In this document: piece after piece, positions 13,582 through 24,618 of the stretch
Position numbering within the stretch: the first letter of the stretch is position 1
Layout: each line of letters opens with the position of its first letter
NCBI GenBank assembly: GCA_026713705.1
Contig: JAPONY010000019.1
Span: 1 to 36,191, forward strand
Length of the DNA stretch: 36,191 bases
Direction: 5' to 3'
Source of the DNA: Gammaproteobacteria bacterium
GTDB taxonomy: Bacteria; Pseudomonadota; Gammaproteobacteria; Poriferisulfidales; Poriferisulfidaceae
The notes under the pieces: generated by a model
What the model was told of the DNA's origin: nothing
The model's input: only the letters and a program-made list of their open reading frames with translations
Database searches by the model: none
Program-made: the position numbers and the translations under genes

Positions 13582-13827
13582 ATGGCGAGCATCACTATCC
13601 GAAACCTTGAAGATGAGATCAAACAGAATCTGCGTGTTCGCGCGGCCAAAAATGGTCATTCCATGGAAGAGGAAGTGCGCGAAATCCTACGCTACACGTT
13701 TGATGTGAATTCCTTACCGGAAAAAAATCTGGGTACGGCAATCCACCAGTTGTTCGAGGCAGCCGGTGGAATTGAACTTGACCTTCCCCCGCGTCAACCC
13801 ATGCGTGAATTGCCAGATTTCGATTAG
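13582..13827 (+). CDS. FitA-type ribbon-helix-helix antitoxin
   Basis: 81 residues. The N-terminus MASITIRNLEDEIKQNLRVRAAKNGHSMEEEVREILR is an Arc/MetJ-type ribbon-helix-helix DNA-binding domain in the form typical of FitA/StbC-like antitoxins. The C-terminal third, with its LDLPPRQPMRELPDFD end, would wrap the toxin. AGGAGGAGG lies just before the start. It ends 12 bases before a PIN-domain toxin. Such antitoxins bind the toxin and repress their own operon. Confidence 0.9.
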   Translation: MASITIRNLEDEIKQNLRVRAAKNGHSMEEEVREILRYTFDVNSLPEKNLGTAIHQLFEAAGGIELDLPPRQPMRELPDFD

Positions 13828-13839
13828 GCAAACGCTCCA

Positions 13840-14262
13840 ATGATCATTCTTGATACCAATGTCATATCGGAATTGATGCGGGACAATCCCCATCCGGTCA
13901 TGCTAGCTTGGCTGAATGGACAACTCACTCGCACCTTGTTTTCTACGACTGTAAACGAGGCGGAAATCCTCTCTGGAATTGCAGTGTTACCCGAAGGGAA
14001 ACGACGAAACCGGCTTGCAGTCGCAGCTTCGCATACTTTCGAGAAATTGTTCGCTGACCGCATTCTTCCGTTTGACAGCAGCGCTGCCGCCGCCTATGCG
14101 GAAATTGCCTCGGAACGACGTGCTTCTGGTCATCCAATTAGTCACTTTGACGCCCAGATCTCTGCAATTGCCCGCTCAAGAAATGCGATCATTGCTACTC
14201 ACAATGCCAAAGACTTCAGAAATATTGGAATTGACGTGATCGACCCTTGGCAAAATTCCTGA
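13840..14262 (+). CDS. PIN-domain toxin (FitB/VapC type)
   Basis: 140 residues. ILDTNVISELM places Asp5 at the active site; VNEAEILSGIAVLP supplies Glu42, SHFDAQISAIARS supplies Asp104, and IIATHNAKDFRNIGIDVIDPW supplies the Asp near 125. All four acidic positions of the PIN RNase are present, so the enzyme should be active. The order RHH antitoxin then PIN toxin, the AT-richer DNA and the position between acuI and uvrB fit a transferred toxin-antitoxin pair. It converges with uvrB, leaving only 27 bases between stop codons. RNA target unknown. Confidence 0.92.
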   Translation: MIILDTNVISELMRDNPHPVMLAWLNGQLTRTLFSTTVNEAEILSGIAVLPEGKRRNRLAVAASHTFEKLFADRILPFDSSAAAAYAEIASERRASGHPISHFDAQISAIARSRNAIIATHNAKDFRNIGIDVIDPWQNS

Positions 14263-14289: not shown

Positions 14290-16311
14290 TCAGCTCGCCG
14301 CCTTGAGCGTCGCGCCGAACGTCTGCTCGTGAATGGCGCGGGCTTCATCCCGCAACCGCGCCGCCTCCTCGAATTCCAGTTCCCGCGCATGGTGATACAT
14401 CTGCTGCTCCAGCTCCCGGATCTTCCGGAGCGCCTCTTCCGGGCTCAACGGCTCGGCCGGTTCAGCCTGAGCGTACCGGACCCGTTTGGCGTGTTTCCCG
14501 GGGGCACGTCCGGCCGCGCCTTCCATGATGTCGGCAACCCGCTTCTCGATGCCCCGGGGGGTGATCCCGTGCTCGCGGTTGAATTCCTGCTGCTTGGCGC
14601 GTCGGCGATCGGTCTCGTCGATGGCCCGGCGCATTGAATTGGTGATCTCGTCGGCGTACAGGAGCGCGCTCCCCTTTAGATGCCGTGCCGCCCGGCCAAT
14701 GGTCTGGATCAGCGAGCGCTCCGAACGCAGGAACCCTTCCTTGTCTGCATCCAGGATCGCCACCAGCGCAACTTCCGGAATGTCCAGCCCTTCGCGCAAA
14801 AGGTTGATCCCGACCAGCACGTCGAACTCGCCGAGCCGCAGGTCGCGGATGATCTCGACCCGTTCCACGGTGTCGATGTCGGAGTGCAGGTATCGAACCC
14901 GGACGTCGTGCTCGCGCAGGTATTCGGTCAAATCCTCGGCCATGCGCTTGGTCAGCGTGGTCACCAGCACCCGGTCGCCGTCCCCGGCGGTCTTTCGGAT
15001 CTCGGACAGCAAGTCATCAACCTGGGTGGAGACCGGGCGAACCTCGACGCCCGGGTCCACCAGCCCGGTCGGGCGCACGACCTGTTCGACGACCTGTCCC
15101 GCAAGCTTGAGTTCGTAAGGTCCGGGCGTGGCCGAGACATGGATGGTCTGCGGCGCCAGCGCCTCGAACTCCTCGAACTTGAGGGGCCGGTTGTCCAGCG
15201 CGGACGGCAGCCGGAACCCGTAATCGACCAGATTCTTCTTGCGCGAATAATCGCCCCGGTACATGCCGCCGAACTGCGGGATCGTGACGTGGCTCTCATC
15301 GACGAACAGCAGGGCATTGTCCGGCAGGTAGTCCAGCAGGCAAGGCGGCGGCTCCCCGGGCCCGCGCCCGGACAGGTAGCGCGAGTAATTCTCGATGCCG
15401 GCGCAATAGCCAAGCTCCTCGATCATTTCCAGGTCGTAGCGGGTGCGCTGCTCCAGGCGCTGCGCCTCCACCAACTGGTCCTGCGACACCAGGAAGGCCA
15501 GATGGGTCTCGAGTTCTTCCCGGATCTGCTCTACCGCGCGCTCCAGCACCACTTTCGGAGTCACGTAATGGCTCTTCGGATAGATGGTCAGCCGGGGCAC
15601 GTCGCGATGCACCTCTCCGGTCAGCGGGTCGAAGAAGCGCAGGCGCTCGACCTCGTCGTCGAGCAGCTCGATGCGCACCGCTTCGCGCTCCGAATCCGCC
15701 GGATGCACGTCGATCACGTCGCCGCGCACCCGGAACGTGCCTCGGCGAAGGTCGATTTCGTTGCGCTTGTACTGCAATTCCGCGAGCCGTCGCAGGATCC
15801 CGCGCTGCCCGGTGCGGTCGCCGCGGTTCAGGTGCAGCACCATCCGGTGGTAGGACTTGGGGTCCCCCAGCCCGTAGATGGAGGAAACCGTGCCGACGAT
15901 GATCGTGTCGGGCCGTTCGAACAGGGCCTTGGTCGCGGACAGGCGCATCTGCTCGATGTGGTCGTTGATCGACGCGTCCTTCTCGATGTAGGTATCCGAG
16001 GACGGCACGTACGCTTCCGGCTGGTAGTAGTCGTAGTACGACACGAAGTATTCCACCGCGTTGTGCGGGAAGAACTCCTTCATCTCCCCGTACAGCTGCG
16101 CGGCCAGGGTCTTGTTGTGCACCACCACGATGGTCGGCCGCTGCAACTGGTGGATGACGCAGGCCATGGTGTAGGTCTTGCCGGAACCGGTCACGCCGAG
16201 CAGGCTCTGGTGGCTGAGGCCGTCCTCCAGCCCCGCGACCAGCGATTCGATGGCTTCCGGCTGGTCGCCGGCCGGCCCGAAGGAGGCTTGCAAGTCAAAC
16301 GCGAATGACAT
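14290..16311 (-). CDS. uvrB: Excinuclease ABC subunit B
   Basis: 673 residues from ATG 16311 ([21 protein letters not shown]); the frame runs on upstream over aspB but that is not UvrB sequence. DNA-damage verification helicase of nucleotide excision repair, loaded by UvrA and recruiting UvrC. Seen: Walker [19 protein letters not shown], the damage hairpin [12 protein letters not shown], the [17 protein letters not shown] box, [48 protein letters not shown], and the C-terminal UVR motif [32 protein letters not shown]. 75 bases separate it from the divergent aspB; no clear LexA box (CTGT-N8-ACAG) is seen there. Confidence 0.98.
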
Positions 16312-16386: not shown

Positions 16387-17568
16387 ATGGAACGCGCCCT
16401 TTCGAAACGGGTCGGACGTTGCGAGCCTTCCGCAACGCTGGCCGTCTCCGCGACTGCGCGCCGCCTGCGCGCGGCGGGCCAGGAAATCATCGACTGGAGC
16501 GCCGGAGAGCCGGATTTCGACACCCCGGAAAACATCTGCGACGCCGCGGTCCAGGCCATCCGCGAAGGCCAGACCCGCTACACCTCGGTCGGTGGCACGC
16601 CGGCCCTGCGCGCCGCGATCGCGCACAAGTTCCACCGCGACAACAAACTGCACTTCGAGGCCGACCAGATCCTGGTGAGCGCCGGCGCGAAGCAAGTCCT
16701 GTACAACTGCCTGCAGGCACTGGTCGATCCCGGCGACGAAGTCATCATCCCTACTCCCTACTGGGCCTCGTACCCCGACATGGTGCGCCTGGCGGGCGGC
16801 GAGCCAGTGTTCCTGCCGACCACCCTGCAGCAGAATTTCCGCCCGACCGCCGAGCAGCTGGACCAGGCGATCACCGCGCGCACGAAGCTGCTGATCCTCA
16901 ACAGCCCGTCCAATCCCTGCGGCGCCATGCTGCACCGGGAGGACCTTGAGGAGTTCGCCAAAGTGCTGCGCGCGCACCCTCATGTGAACGTGGCGTCCGA
17001 CGATATCTACGAGTTGATCCGGTTCGACGGCGTGCCGTTCTGCAGCCTGGCCCAGATCGCGCCCGACCTGAGCGACCGCACCCTCCTCATCAACGGCGTC
17101 TCCAAAGCCTATGCCATGACCGGCTGGCGGATCGGCTATGCGGCGGGGCCCAAGGACATCATCGACGCCATGCTCACCGTCCAGTCGCAGAGCACTTCCA
17201 ACCCCTGCTCAGTCGCCCAGGCCGCCGCCTGCGCCGCGCTGCTGGAGGACCAGTCCTCGGTGCCCGACATGGTGGCCGCCTTCGAACAGCGCCGCAACTA
17301 CATCGTGGCGGCTCTCGACGAACTACCCGGCATCACCTGCCTGAAACCCGACGGCGCGTTCTACTGCCTGCCGGACGTCGGCGAGGCCATGCGCCGGTTG
17401 GAATGCCCGACGGACATCGAGTTCGCCACCCTGCTGCTCGACCAGTTGCGCCTTGCCGTGGTGCCTGGAATCCCGTTCGGCTCGGCCGACCACATCCGGG
17501 TGTCGTTCGCCACCGACATGCCGACTCTTGAGGAAGGCATCTCGCGCCTGCGCGACCTTCTTGACTGA
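16387..17568 (+). CDS. aspB: Class I aspartate aminotransferase-like enzyme
   Basis: 393 residues. PLP-dependent fold type I enzyme of the AspB (subgroup I-gamma) type: [14 protein letters not shown] near 37-50, [30 protein letters not shown] near 172-179, SDDIYELI, and the PLP Lys240 in [26 protein letters not shown] near the end carries the substrate-carboxylate Arg. It transfers amino groups between aspartate or a related amino acid and 2-oxoglutarate. Its stop codon overlaps the next gene (TTG start at 17561), making it the first gene of a coupled four-gene run that ends in a Cas6-like gene. Exact substrate not readable from sequence. Confidence 0.93.
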
Positions 17569-18439
17569 CGCACCCTCTCATCTTCCCCCCGCATGGTGGG
17601 ATCTCGCCCGCACGGAAGCCTATCGGGCATGGCGGGAACAGGTCCTCGGCGAAAGCGTGACGGACTTCACGCCGGTCCGACTCCGCGACCTCTCCCGGTT
17701 GAGCGCGGCGGAAATCGATGCCCTGGCCTCGCGCCTGCATGCCGCCGGGGCCGTCTGCTACGGCACGGACCGCATCCCTGAGCCTCGCGACATCCTCGCC
17801 CTGGGCGAGCAGCTGGGGCTGGTGCATCTCGACCACCACCAGTGCGCCGAACCGGACGGGGTGGCGCGGCTGACCGCACGGGAAGACACGGCCGGGCGGT
17901 TCATCCCGTACACCCGCCACCGCCTGCGCTGGCATACCGACGGCTACTACCAGCCGGATACGCAAAAGATCCGCAGTTTCGTCCTGCACTGCGTCCAGCC
18001 GGCGCTCGACGGCGGCGTCAACCGGCTGCTCGACCCGCGCCTGCTGTACATCGCCCTGCGTGACGAGAATCCGGACCTGATCCAGGCCCTGATCCACCCC
18101 CGGGCCCTCACGGTCCCGGCCCATGCCGAGGACGGCGAGGAACGCCGCGCCGAATTCAGCGGCCCGGTCTTCTCCATCGACGGCGAACACCTGTACATGC
18201 GCTATACCGAGCGCGCCATCCATATCCGCTGGCATCCCGAAACCGAACCTGCCCGGACCCGGGTCCAGGAATTGCTTGAGACCTTGCCGCAAGCCGGGCA
18301 CCTCCTCCGCCTGGATGCGGGATGCGGACTGATCGCGCATAATGTGTTGCATTGCCGGAGCGCTTATGCCGACTCTGCCGATCACCCCCGCCTGCTGTAC
18401 CGAACCCGCTACACGGACCGCGCCCGACGCCCATGCTGA
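17561..18439 (+). CDS. TauD/SyrP-like Fe(II)/2-oxoglutarate dioxygenase
   Basis: 292 residues with a TTG start at 17561 that overlaps the aspB stop; no ATG lies before the conserved region. The N-terminus WWDLARTEAYRAWR is followed by a TauD/TfdA core: the iron motif HxD in RLRWHTDGYY (His125, Asp127), GGVNRLLDPRLLYIALRDENPD, SIDGEHLYMRYTERAIHIRWH, and the distal His with the 2-oxoglutarate Arg in LIAHNVLHCRSAY (His264 and Arg266), then LLYRTRYTDR. Enzymes of this kind oxidise amino-acid-like or sulfonate substrates; here the substrate is unknown. It overlaps the next small gene by seven bases. Confidence 0.87.
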   Translation: MTDAPSHLPPAWWDLARTEAYRAWREQVLGESVTDFTPVRLRDLSRLSAAEIDALASRLHAAGAVCYGTDRIPEPRDILALGEQLGLVHLDHHQCAEPDGVARLTAREDTAGRFIPYTRHRLRWHTDGYYQPDTQKIRSFVLHCVQPALDGGVNRLLDPRLLYIALRDENPDLIQALIHPRALTVPAHAEDGEERRAEFSGPVFSIDGEHLYMRYTERAIHIRWHPETEPARTRVQELLETLPQAGHLLRLDAGCGLIAHNVLHCRSAYADSADHPRLLYRTRYTDRARRPC

Positions 18440-18624
18440 CCCTGAGCGAACTTTTGATTGGCCACTATGATCTGGACTCCTTCGAGAGCCTGAAGGATCT
18501 GATCGCGGAACGCATCGATGCCGGGGAGCGGTTCCTCAGCCTGGACGTCCGCCCCCCGTTTCACGACACTCCGGACGACTGGGAGGAGCAGCTGGAAAGC
18601 TTCTTCACGGCCCGCCGCCCCTGA
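18433..18624 (+). CDS. 63-residue protein of unknown function
   Basis: Not recognised. From ATG 18433 it overlaps the dioxygenase stop and ends two bases before the Cas6-like gene. Mostly helical by eye and acidic: MLTLSELLIGHYDLDSFE, LKDLIAERIDAGERFLSLD, then RPPFHDTPDDWEEQLESFF. Its place between two tightly coupled genes is the main reason to believe it is real. It could be a small partner or adaptor of either neighbour. Confidence 0.68.
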   Translation: MLTLSELLIGHYDLDSFESLKDLIAERIDAGERFLSLDVRPPFHDTPDDWEEQLESFFTARRP

Positions 18625-18626
18625 CC

Positions 18627-19304
18627 GTGCACTGGCAGGAAGAGGACACTCCCCCGCCCCCCGTCGCCCCGGACGTGGTGGACGTCCGCTACCGGATCCG
18701 GTGCCGGGCGTTGCCGGTCGACCATGCCCGAGACCTGCGCTTGGCACTGCTTTCGGTCTGGCCCTGGCTTGCCGACGAGCCGCTTGCCGGCATTCACACC
18801 ATCCATGGGGCCGAATCCGGGAACGGCTGGATCCGGCCGGACGATCCGGCTACCTACCTGCCGCTGTCCAGGCGGACCCGTCTGGCCCTGCGGCTGCCTT
18901 ACCACCGTCTGGAGGAAGCGCGGGAGTTGCCCGGAACCACCCTGCAGGTCGGGCCGGACCCGATGGTGATCGAGGACAGCCGCCTGTACCCACTGCAGGC
19001 ACAGGGCACGGCTTTCGCCCGCTACGTGGCGATCGAAACCGAGGATGAAGAGACGTTCCTGGGCCTGTGCGCCGAGCAACTCCAAGGCTTCGGCATCGAA
19101 GCGCCGCGCATGATGGCCGGCCGGACCCACCTCATCGCCGCAAACAATGCAGCCCTGCACTGCCGCAGCTTGATGCTGGACGGGCTCGATCCCGGACAGT
19201 CCCTGGATCTCCAGCGTCAGGGCCTTGGCCCCGAGCGGCTGCTCGGCTGCGGCCTGTTCCTGCCCCACAAAAGCATTGCGCCCGTCGCGACGACACCCCA
19301 ATAA
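18627..19304 (+). CDS. Cas6-like RAMP protein (Cmx6 type), no CRISPR nearby
   Basis: 225 residues, GTG start two bases after the preceding stop. VVDVRYRIRCRALPVDHARDLRLALLSVWPWL (18-48) reads as the first strand and helix of a ferredoxin-like RAMP fold. LPLSRRTRLALRLPYHRL follows. The end has the Cas6 glycine-rich loop in full: GLGPERLLGCG (199-209, GxG-x5-GxG) and then LFLPHKSI. From memory the pattern fits the Cas6/Cmx6 family (called type I-MYXAN). Cas6 proteins cut CRISPR precursor RNA, but no array or other cas gene is seen in the window. It is translated in a run with an aminotransferase, a dioxygenase and a 63-residue protein, so it may process or bind another RNA, or its family name may be misleading. 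His33 and His59 are catalytic candidates. Confidence 0.75.
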   Translation: MHWQEEDTPPPPVAPDVVDVRYRIRCRALPVDHARDLRLALLSVWPWLADEPLAGIHTIHGAESGNGWIRPDDPATYLPLSRRTRLALRLPYHRLEEARELPGTTLQVGPDPMVIEDSRLYPLQAQGTAFARYVAIETEDEETFLGLCAEQLQGFGIEAPRMMAGRTHLIAANNAALHCRSLMLDGLDPGQSLDLQRQGLGPERLLGCGLFLPHKSIAPVATTPQ

Positions 19305-19398: not shown

Positions 19399-20013
19399 AT
19401 GCGACATTACGAAATCGTGTTTCTGGTCTATCCGGACCAGAGCGACCAGGTACCGCAAATGATTGAGCGGTACTCGAAAATGGTGACCGGCGACGGCGGA
19501 CAGGTACATCGCCTCGAAGACTGGGGGCGACGCCAGTTGGCCTATTCCATCGACAAACTGCACAAGGCCCACTACGTTCTGATGAACGTGGAATGCGAGT
19601 CCCAGGCGCTGGGAGAGATCCAGCATGCCTTCCGCTTCAACGACGCCGTGCTGCGCAGCCTGATCGTCCGCCAGGACCACGCCATCACCGAGCCTTCGCC
19701 GCTGGCGAAATCGGCCGAGGAGGAAAGCGACACAGAGGACGATTGGCGCAACGACTCACAAGCCTCCGACAAGGCCGCAGCAGACACGCCTGAGAAAGGA
19801 AACGGGGCGGAGACGAAAGCCTCCCCGCCAGCCGCCGAGGCCGAAAAGCCCGCCGAAGCTGAAGAACCTGCCGAGGCCGAAGAGCCCGCACAGGAAGAGG
19901 CTGACCGCCCGCCGACCGAGGCCGCAGCGGATTCCGAGCCCGACGCCGAAGCGGCAGAGACGCAGGAAGCGACCGAAGAACCCACCCCTAAACCCTCCGA
20001 GACCACGGAGTAA
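19399..20013 (+). CDS. rpsF: 30S ribosomal protein bS6 with long acidic tail
   Basis: 204 residues, against about 95-135 in most bacteria. The core (1-100) is normal: [63 protein letters not shown]. From about 105 to the end runs a disordered Ala/Glu/Pro tail with [19 protein letters not shown] repeats. SD AAGGGAG precedes the ATG. In E. coli, RimK adds glutamates to the S6 C-terminus; here a long acidic tail is genetically encoded. First gene of rpsF-rpsR-DUF2232-rplI. Confidence 0.97.
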
Positions 20014-23370: not shown

Positions 23371-24618
23371 ATGAAAGTCCACCGCACCGTCCGCTACCGC
23401 CTGCACCCCGGCTCAAAACGCAAGCATCAGCAGTTGCACGGCACCGCCGGAGCCTGTCGATTCGTCTGGAACCACATGGTCGGGAAGCTTGAGGATGAAT
23501 ATGCGTTCGGGATCCGCCCGGAATGGCGATATTACTCAATGGGCAAGGTCTTCACCATATTGCGGAGGCACAGCTACAAGTGGTTACAGGGCTATTCGGC
23601 AAACATCGTCAAGAACTCGCTCCAGCCCATCGAGACGGCTTACAAGGCGTTCTTTGCTGATTTGAAGACTGGAGGGAAACTCAACCGAAAGCCTCCGAGG
23701 TTCCACGGCAAGTACACTACCCCACTTTCTTTCCCGATCAATTACGTCACTGCGAAAATCTCTGGAGACAGCCTATTCGTTCAGAAAGTCGGCTGGATGA
23801 AGATGGTAGGCAATAACCCGTATCCGGACGGCGAGTTCAAGTCCGGGCGCATCCGGCATGAGTGTGGGAATTGGTACGCTTACTTAGTCTACGAAGTGGA
23901 AACCCAAGCCAGCCTTTCGCATACGATCAGGGAAGTGGGGGTCGACCGCAACGTATCGGATGGCCGATGGGCAGTGCTCTCGGACGGGAGCAAACACCCG
24001 ATCCCCGACCTTGGGCGCAAGGTTGCCCGCCGGAAACGATACCAACGCAAACTGGCACGGCAGGCCAAAGGGAGCAACCGGCGAAAAGTCACTCAGGTGC
24101 GGTTGCAGAAAGCATTCCAAGCAGAACGCTTCGCTCGCCTGAACTGGGCGCACCACGTCAGCAAGGCCATTGCTTCGCAGTACGATCTCACCTACATCGA
24201 AGATCTGAACATCAGGAGTATGACGAAATCGGCCAAGGGTACAGTGGAGGTTCCAGGAAAGAACGTGAAAGCGAAATCAGAGCTGAACCGCAGGATATTA
24301 GCCAGCGCATGGGGCATGCTGGAATTGCGCCTGAGCTACAAGACAAAAGTGCGCAAGGTGAAGCCGGCGTACTCCAGCCAGACGTGCCACCAGTGCGGGC
24401 ACGTGGCAAAGGAAAATCGTCCTTCGCAATCAGATTTCAAGTGCACCGCTTGCGGGCACACAGACGATGCGGACGTGAATGCCGCGTTGAACATCCTGGC
24501 CTTCGGGAATGGGGCTACTGGGCGTGGAGGTGGCGACACCGGCGGAGCATCCCGCCACAGTCGGCCTGGGAAGCGTCAAGAAATGAGCAGGAACCGTCAT
24601 GCGGATTTTGCTACATAA
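23371..24618 (+). CDS. tnpB: TnpB, RNA-guided nuclease of the IS605 OrfB family
   Basis: 415 residues, full length. N-terminus MKVHRTVRYRLHPGSKRKHQQLHGTAGACRFVWNHMV is the OrfB helix-turn-helix start. The RuvC-like catalytic centre appears complete: Asp in VGVDRNVSDG (about 193), Glu in YIEDLNIRSM (about 281), and Asp in DDADVNAALNI (about 370). Between the last two is the zinc finger CHQCGHVAKE...FKCTACG with four Cys. TnpB proteins cut DNA guided by an omega-RNA made from the element's right end and keep the element in place; TAM recognition follows the left-flank sequence, here TTGAT. The Gly/Arg-rich tail after residue 380 probably reflects the overlapping omega-RNA rather than protein constraint. 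Confidence 0.93.
   Translation: MKVHRTVRYRLHPGSKRKHQQLHGTAGACRFVWNHMVGKLEDEYAFGIRPEWRYYSMGKVFTILRRHSYKWLQGYSANIVKNSLQPIETAYKAFFADLKTGGKLNRKPPRFHGKYTTPLSFPINYVTAKISGDSLFVQKVGWMKMVGNNPYPDGEFKSGRIRHECGNWYAYLVYEVETQASLSHTIREVGVDRNVSDGRWAVLSDGSKHPIPDLGRKVARRKRYQRKLARQAKGSNRRKVTQVRLQKAFQAERFARLNWAHHVSKAIASQYDLTYIEDLNIRSMTKSAKGTVEVPGKNVKAKSELNRRILASAWGMLELRLSYKTKVRKVKPAYSSQTCHQCGHVAKENRPSQSDFKCTACGHTDDADVNAALNILAFGNGATGRGGGDTGGASRHSRPGKRQEMSRNRHADFAT

Follow-up and report, generated by a model that had tools for sequence, protein, structure and literature searches.

An open reading frame (ORF) in the 36,191-nucleotide contig analysed here (the window), from a Gammaproteobacteria bacterium, encodes a genuine Cas6-family protein by profile and by RAMP (double ferredoxin-like) fold, and the distribution of this cas6 among Gammaproteobacteria follows that of dsrA, a gene for reverse dissimilatory sulfite reductase (rDsr), almost perfectly and is independent of Cas1. 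We lean slightly toward the reading that a Cas6 was captured into the Gammaproteobacterial rDsr cluster, domesticated, and kept there as a standard part that acts on RNA without CRISPR. In this reading it is an RNA-binding protein of the Cas6 type, probably an endoribonuclease, that would act on dsr-related RNA.

The initial annotation had named the protein Cas6-like from the Cmx6 pattern, a C-terminal GLG-x5-GCG loop and an N-terminal RAMP pattern, and it was right. The protein matches NCBIfam TIGR02807 (type I-MYXAN Cas6/Cmx6) with an E-value of 4e-30 and 105.2 bits, above the curated cut-off of 98.85 bits, and Pfam PF09559 (Cas6) with an E-value of 1.1e-52 and 179.2 bits (cut-off 26.7). Several PADLOC Cas6 models also match, with E-values down to 3e-51, and the TIGR02807 model was likewise matched by 27 of 27 aligned homologues. 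The sole clear sequence relative in the PDB is the Cas6 of a type I-B CRISPR-associated transposon (CAST) (8fcj; E-value of 3e-8 from the single sequence and 8e-24 from a profile). An AlphaFold2 model generated with the alignment of the 27 homologues had a mean pLDDT of 84.6 and a pTM of 0.81. The best Foldseek match of this model in the PDB was 8fcu_B (E-value of 1e-16), followed by further Cas6 chains, and comparison by VIA with 8fcj_B resulted in a Z score of 24.3 and an rmsd of 2.1 over 196 residues, with Z scores of 10–16 for other Cas6 structures. The predicted fold is thus that of Cas6.

The window corresponds to contig 19 in a genome of 1.94 Mb (95.6% complete), the closest named records of which are Candidatus Porisulfidus, a sponge-associated sulfur-oxidising symbiont. 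The gene is single-copy in all six genomes of the window's family, with 67–91% identity. It is preceded by three tightly packed genes (Table 1), an arrangement that was described correctly at the outset: the TauD-like gene overlaps the aminotransferase gene, its own end is in turn overlapped by the 63-residue ORF, and cas6 starts two bases past the stop of the 63-residue ORF. Searches of Pfam, NCBIfam and the PDB gave no significant match for the 63-residue protein. In those Porisulfidus loci that are long enough (L007–L010), cas6 lies between uvrB-aminotransferase and rpsF-rpsR-rplI-dnaB, after the TauD-like and 63-residue genes. Next to uvrB in the window there is also a FitA-like antitoxin and PIN-domain toxin pair (13582–13827 and 13840–14262, + strand), and the ribosomal protein S6 (19399–20013, + strand; 204 residues) carries a long acidic, Ala/Glu-rich C-terminal tail.

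Table 1 Features of the cas6 locus in the window
Feature	Position	Strand	Details
Class I/II aminotransferase	16387-17568	+	PF00155, 4e-78; not in the conserved set
TauD/TfdA-like 2-oxoglutarate dioxygenase (dsrQ)	17561-18439	+	PF02668, 5.7e-14; TTG start
Small protein, no known family	18433-18624	+	63 aa; found by tblastn in most of 60 loci
Cas6/Cmx6-family protein, dsr-type orphan	18627-19304	+	225 aa; GTG start
Codon of His33 (LPxDH motif), likely Cas6-type catalytic histidine	18723-18725	+	Residue conservation
Glycine-rich loop GLGPERLLGCG (residues 199-209), Cas6 hallmark	19221-19253	+	Residue conservation

A repeat-array search of the 36-kb window revealed no CRISPR-like array, an Rfam scan returned three tRNAs only and no CRISPR RNA family, and a PADLOC scan of 20 other large window ORFs identified no second cas gene, a TnpB-type protein aside. 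The latter, a transposon protein encoded at 23371–24618 (+ strand) and inserted between dnaB and alr, matches Cas12f1-like_TNB (3e-18), OrfB_IS605 and HTH_OrfB as well as PADLOC Cas12f models. With this one Cas12f-like exception, the earlier observation that the window holds no array or other cas gene was borne out. Both points that could have refuted the initial annotation instead upheld it: the fold is that of Cas6, and neither Cas1 nor Cas7/DevR was found in the genome. The Cas3 matches were all below cut-off, the same model also matching in all 14 control genomes. The status of the gene as an orphan apart from CRISPR is strongly supported by this lack of Cas1 in the genome and by the independence of carriers from Cas1 described below.

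To survey the class, we searched 370 Gammaproteobacteria genomes of at least 90% completeness, drawn evenly from it, for cas6 (with a profile), Cas1 and dsrA. This identified cas6, a single-copy gene, in 128 genomes, Cas1 in 146 and dsrA in 125. Both cas6 and dsrA were present in 122 genomes, cas6 only in 6, dsrA only in 3 and neither in 239 (Fisher p of 5e-86 and odds ratio of 1620, both without correction for kinship). Mixed families show the same pattern: f32, f49 and f118 each include genomes that carry the pair alongside genomes that lack both. By contrast, Cas1 was found in 58 of the 128 cas6 carriers versus 88 of the 242 non-carriers (cas6 only, 70; neither, 154; Fisher p of 0.12).

Most of the 9 genomes that are discordant for cas6 and dsrA are explained by contig breaks, and one by a real CRISPR Cas6. 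In the dsrA-only genomes (G111, G189 and G099) the contig stops beside dsrA, the outermost genes in G111 being TauD and the small gene, and in four cas6-only genomes (G115, G085, G283 and G064) the contig ends toward the expected dsrA side. The cas6 of G359, the weakest match (1.7e-33), shares its contig with a Cas1 gene 6.5 kb away and is a genuine CRISPR Cas6, indicating that our search is able to detect such proteins. One cas6-only exception, G267, is left standing. The geometry of the pair is also constant: cas6 and dsrA lie on the same contig within 10 kb in 89 genomes and are divergent in 89 of 89, with a median gap of 1.65 kb and all pairs within 4.5 kb. Among the 122 carriers of both genes, the pair is split between contigs in 30 and widely separated in three (family f94).

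A second draw of 299 Pseudomonadota provided 35 genomes with dsrA besides that of the window. Three of these are Gammaproteobacteria, and they encode a diverged Cas6 (E-values of ~1e-46 to 1e-48) divergent from dsrA, while no Cas6 was found in the 32 dsrA genomes from outside the class. As dsr clusters outside Gammaproteobacteria work without it, cas6 is not essential to the chemistry. Four of these 32 genomes (G523, G557, G549 and G461) do contain the dsrQ-small pair in divergent orientation to dsrA, without Cas6. Thus, this pair may have come first, with Cas6 probably added to it later in Gammaproteobacteria, an order that we infer.

Scanning one genome per species resulted in 60 loci, nearly all from Gammaproteobacteria. 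A record labeled "Halobacteria" (L028) groups with Gammaproteobacteria in the tree and is probably mis-binned. Clustering of the ORFs that neighbor cas6 revealed DsrC-, DsrE-, DsrF- and DsrB-like proteins, and in locus L014 the NCBIfam models for dsrA, dsrB, dsrE, dsrF and dsrC were all matched above cut-offs. The usual map of the 60 loci is dsrK-M-C-H-F-E-B-A and, divergent from it, dsrQ(TauD)-small-(TPR)-cas6-dsrC2-p67. In loci other than those of the Porisulfidus group, the TauD-like and 63-residue genes are kept, while the aminotransferase and ribosomal genes are no longer neighbors. The initial annotation had placed cas6 in a metabolic operon with three genes; the part of this that stood is the TauD-like gene (dsrQ) and the 63-residue protein, which recur in most of the 60 loci, while the aminotransferase, adjacent only in Porisulfidus loci L007–L010 and hence confined to the window's genus, was dropped as a functional partner.

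The conserved partners of cas6 are dsrQ, the 63-residue protein, a DsrC without cysteines and, in divergent orientation, the dsr operon. The gene for the latter DsrC-family protein, dsrC2, is nearly always immediately 3′ of cas6 (for example, L014 10788–11126, with the tail GLPESRRKGGY); its product lacks both C-terminal (redox) cysteines, ends with GLPE(S/T)RRKGGY in most loci, and is possibly a regulator. The TPR gene is optional; where it is present the small gene lies directly upstream of it, and otherwise directly upstream of cas6. It encodes an all-helical repeat protein with weak TPR-type PDB matches only. Downstream of dsrC2 there is a conserved 67-residue protein of no known family, p67 (L014 11255–11458 and equivalents), and in L014 the genes after it encode a histidine kinase resembling NarX/NarQ and a response regulator of the LuxR type. 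The window's genome departs from the common map in that contig 5 carries dsrA-B-E-F-H-C-M-K together with dsrC2, which has stayed next to dsrA in divergent orientation, while dsrQ-small-cas6 lies on contig 19, off the dsrA contig. That dsrQ, the small gene and cas6 moved jointly and are still under selection argues for a functional unit that acts in trans. The Cas6 had no match in phages or viral contigs, and a phage origin of the dsr-type gene was rejected.

In an alignment of 61 rows, the residue at position 33 is a histidine in all 59 rows that cover it, as it is in every CRISPR-linked Cmx6 compared and in three Burkholderiales-type homologues. The catalytic histidine of Cas6 enzymes sits at the start of helix 1, and helix 1 of the AlphaFold2 model (residues 34–44) begins right after His33. 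Residues G199, G207, C208 and G209 of the glycine-rich loop are invariant across the family alignment. The Cas6/Cmx6 proteins of type I-MYXAN CRISPR (Synechocystis 6714 pSYLB and Nostoc plasmids) belong to the same TIGR02807 family, adopt the RAMP fold and share the LPxDH histidine and a GLGGxRxLGCG loop with the dsr-type proteins. However, these cyanobacterial-plasmid proteins are encoded inside real cas operons and show only 25–29% identity to the window Cas6, whereas dsr-type cas6 adjoins dsrA, with no Cas1, Cas3 or Cas7 alongside. An SGNGWxRP insert and an LPHK tail are conserved in the dsr-type proteins and missing from CRISPR Cmx6. The type I-B CAST Cas6 (8fcj and 8fcu), the nearest solved structure by sequence and by fold, is a subunit of a DNA-targeting Cascade and contains an asparagine where the window Cas6 has His33, so sequence does not prove which residue is catalytic.

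In the phylogenetic tree, the 59 dsr-type rows form one group (support 92/80), separate from six CRISPR rows and a Gloeobacter orphan. The latter, from Gloeobacter morelensis plasmid pGMOR1 (L109 7938–11805), falls on the CRISPR side of the tree and is a second kind of Cas6/Cmx6 with no annotated cas genes beside it; the adjacent genes encode a protein with a PAPS-reductase domain and a cupin, and genes for a DNA methyltransferase and a further PAPS reductase lie close by. The dsr-type Cas6 is under purifying selection, with dN/dS of ~0.05–0.18 among copies of the window's genus and 0.04–0.18 for six other pairs, and the gene is retained in reduced genomes of 1.0–1.1 Mb.

Folding of intergenic regions against shuffled sequences revealed unusually strong hairpins in the dsrC-dsrM gap, right after dsrC (mean z of -3.1 in 32 loci; for example, L014 4197–4269 and L119 about 16050–16108), and one is present in the window's genome as well. 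No excess structure was found in the cas6-dsrC2, dsrH-dsrC and dsrC2-p67 gaps. The dsrC-dsrM hairpins show no sequence conservation among loci and none is repeated within a locus; they also occur in two cas6-less dsr clusters from outside Gammaproteobacteria and are absent in one cas6 carrier (G130). For these reasons the hairpin was rejected as an established Cas6 substrate and is only a candidate target, a candidate mRNA stabiliser or processing site being the other reading.

A second element, the palindrome TATCCC-N4-GGGATA, is found in the dsrA-dsrQ intergenic region of 39 of 39 loci, ~200 nt upstream of dsrA and at 11 times background density (L014 around 8445; L119 12061). Beside it are a second palindrome (ACCnATGGGGTG) and a AAGTCTAG element. 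A short palindrome downstream of dsrC2 had been considered as a Cas6 hairpin and was rejected, since the same TATCCC-N4-GGGATA marks these 39 dsrA-dsrQ regions. Its presence there together with the second palindrome reads as the DNA-binding site of a regulator, a likely dsr operator.

How might a Cas6 function in this setting? We propose that a Cas6 of the type that processes CRISPR crRNA was captured into the rDsr gene cluster of Gammaproteobacteria, where it would bind and most likely cleave a particular RNA, with a dsr-cluster transcript as the most probable target. Such cleavage would set the amounts of individual Dsr proteins post-transcriptionally, and the small protein, the optional TPR protein and the cysteine-less DsrC may serve as its cofactors or regulators. 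Our leading model, held with roughly even confidence, is that dsr RNA is trimmed or split by an RNA endonuclease dedicated to it. It fits the picture in Allochromatium vinosum, where the dsr genes are transcribed as a unit, dsrC and dsrS having additional promoters (PMC3368242), an organization that leaves room for post-transcriptional adjustment, where DsrC is cited as binding DNA upstream of the dsr cluster (in PMC5944118), and where DsrR takes part in the regulation of sulfur oxidation (PMC11406059).

The protein could instead be an RNA-binding or scaffold subunit that lacks nuclease activity and holds or protects dsr-related RNA, or brings DsrQ together with the small protein and the cysteine-less DsrC. 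Binding of RNA without cleavage is common among RAMP proteins, the dsr-specific insert and tail suggest new partners, and the next gene encodes a DsrC stripped of its redox cysteines. However, the conservation of His33 and of the entire glycine-rich loop is as strict as in CRISPR Cas6, and a pure scaffold would need neither; we consider this reading possible but unlikely. A protein that acts on RNA outside the dsr cluster, for example on tRNA or a small RNA, as part of sulfur-state control, would be consistent with the homology of DsrEFH and DsrC to the TusBCD-TusE tRNA-thiolation relay (DsrC, DsrE and DsrF at these loci match the TusE, TusD and TusC models) and with the retention of cas6 away from dsr in the window's genus and family f94, where it must act in trans. 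Yet the presence of cas6 follows dsrA, whereas tRNA thiolation is, to our knowledge, near-universal in Gammaproteobacteria, making this reading quite doubtful.

A conventional Cas6 that serves CRISPR arrays at other sites in the genome would account for the curated cas6_cmx6 match, the preserved active-site residues and the carriers that also have Cas1. Its independence from Cas1 largely refutes this, and we regard it as highly improbable: the carriers without Cas1 include Cocleimonas flava DSM 24830, the single-contig Porisulfidus OY288106.1, CP070641.1 and genomes of 1.0 Mb, the window's genome has neither Cas1 nor Cas7/DevR, and cas6 follows dsrA instead. Linkage to dsrA in most genomes could also be that of a functionless passenger of the cluster, but the strong purifying selection, the retention in reduced genomes and the persistence of copies unlinked from dsrA refute this, leaving it with next to no likelihood.

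In sulfur oxidisers, the tauD-like gene that lies upstream of dsr and diverges from dsrA was named dsrQ (Lenk et al. 2012, as cited in PMC7596348); the window TauD-like gene is its counterpart and heads the same operon as cas6. The passages of PMC7596348 on DsrQ report it on its own account, with no mention there of a Cas6-like gene. The A. vinosum genes dsrR and dsrS are, like dsr-type cas6, accessory genes of the rDsr cluster, but they are encoded at the opposite end of the dsr operon, and DsrR, called IscA-like in the title of a cited paper, belongs to a different fold family from Cas6. In the open-access literature we found no paper that links Cas6 with dsr.

Cas6 is known as the cutter of CRISPR RNA, and the present results tie an entire branch of the family to the dsr pathway, from which many sulfur bacteria and animal symbionts derive energy. 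For annotation, the fact that the cas6_cmx6 model accepts dsr-type proteins means that sulfur oxidisers without CRISPR may be credited with a CRISPR gene. As for biology, it is an evenly balanced proposition that Cas6 has been permanently recruited in about one third of the sampled Gammaproteobacteria, essentially all with rDsr, as a non-immune housekeeping processor of sulfur-oxidation RNA. If so, a CRISPR RNA enzyme would have been recruited into energy metabolism to tune a gene cluster at the RNA level, and a former defence enzyme would run a layer of dsr expression that operates on RNA, a sharp and testable claim.
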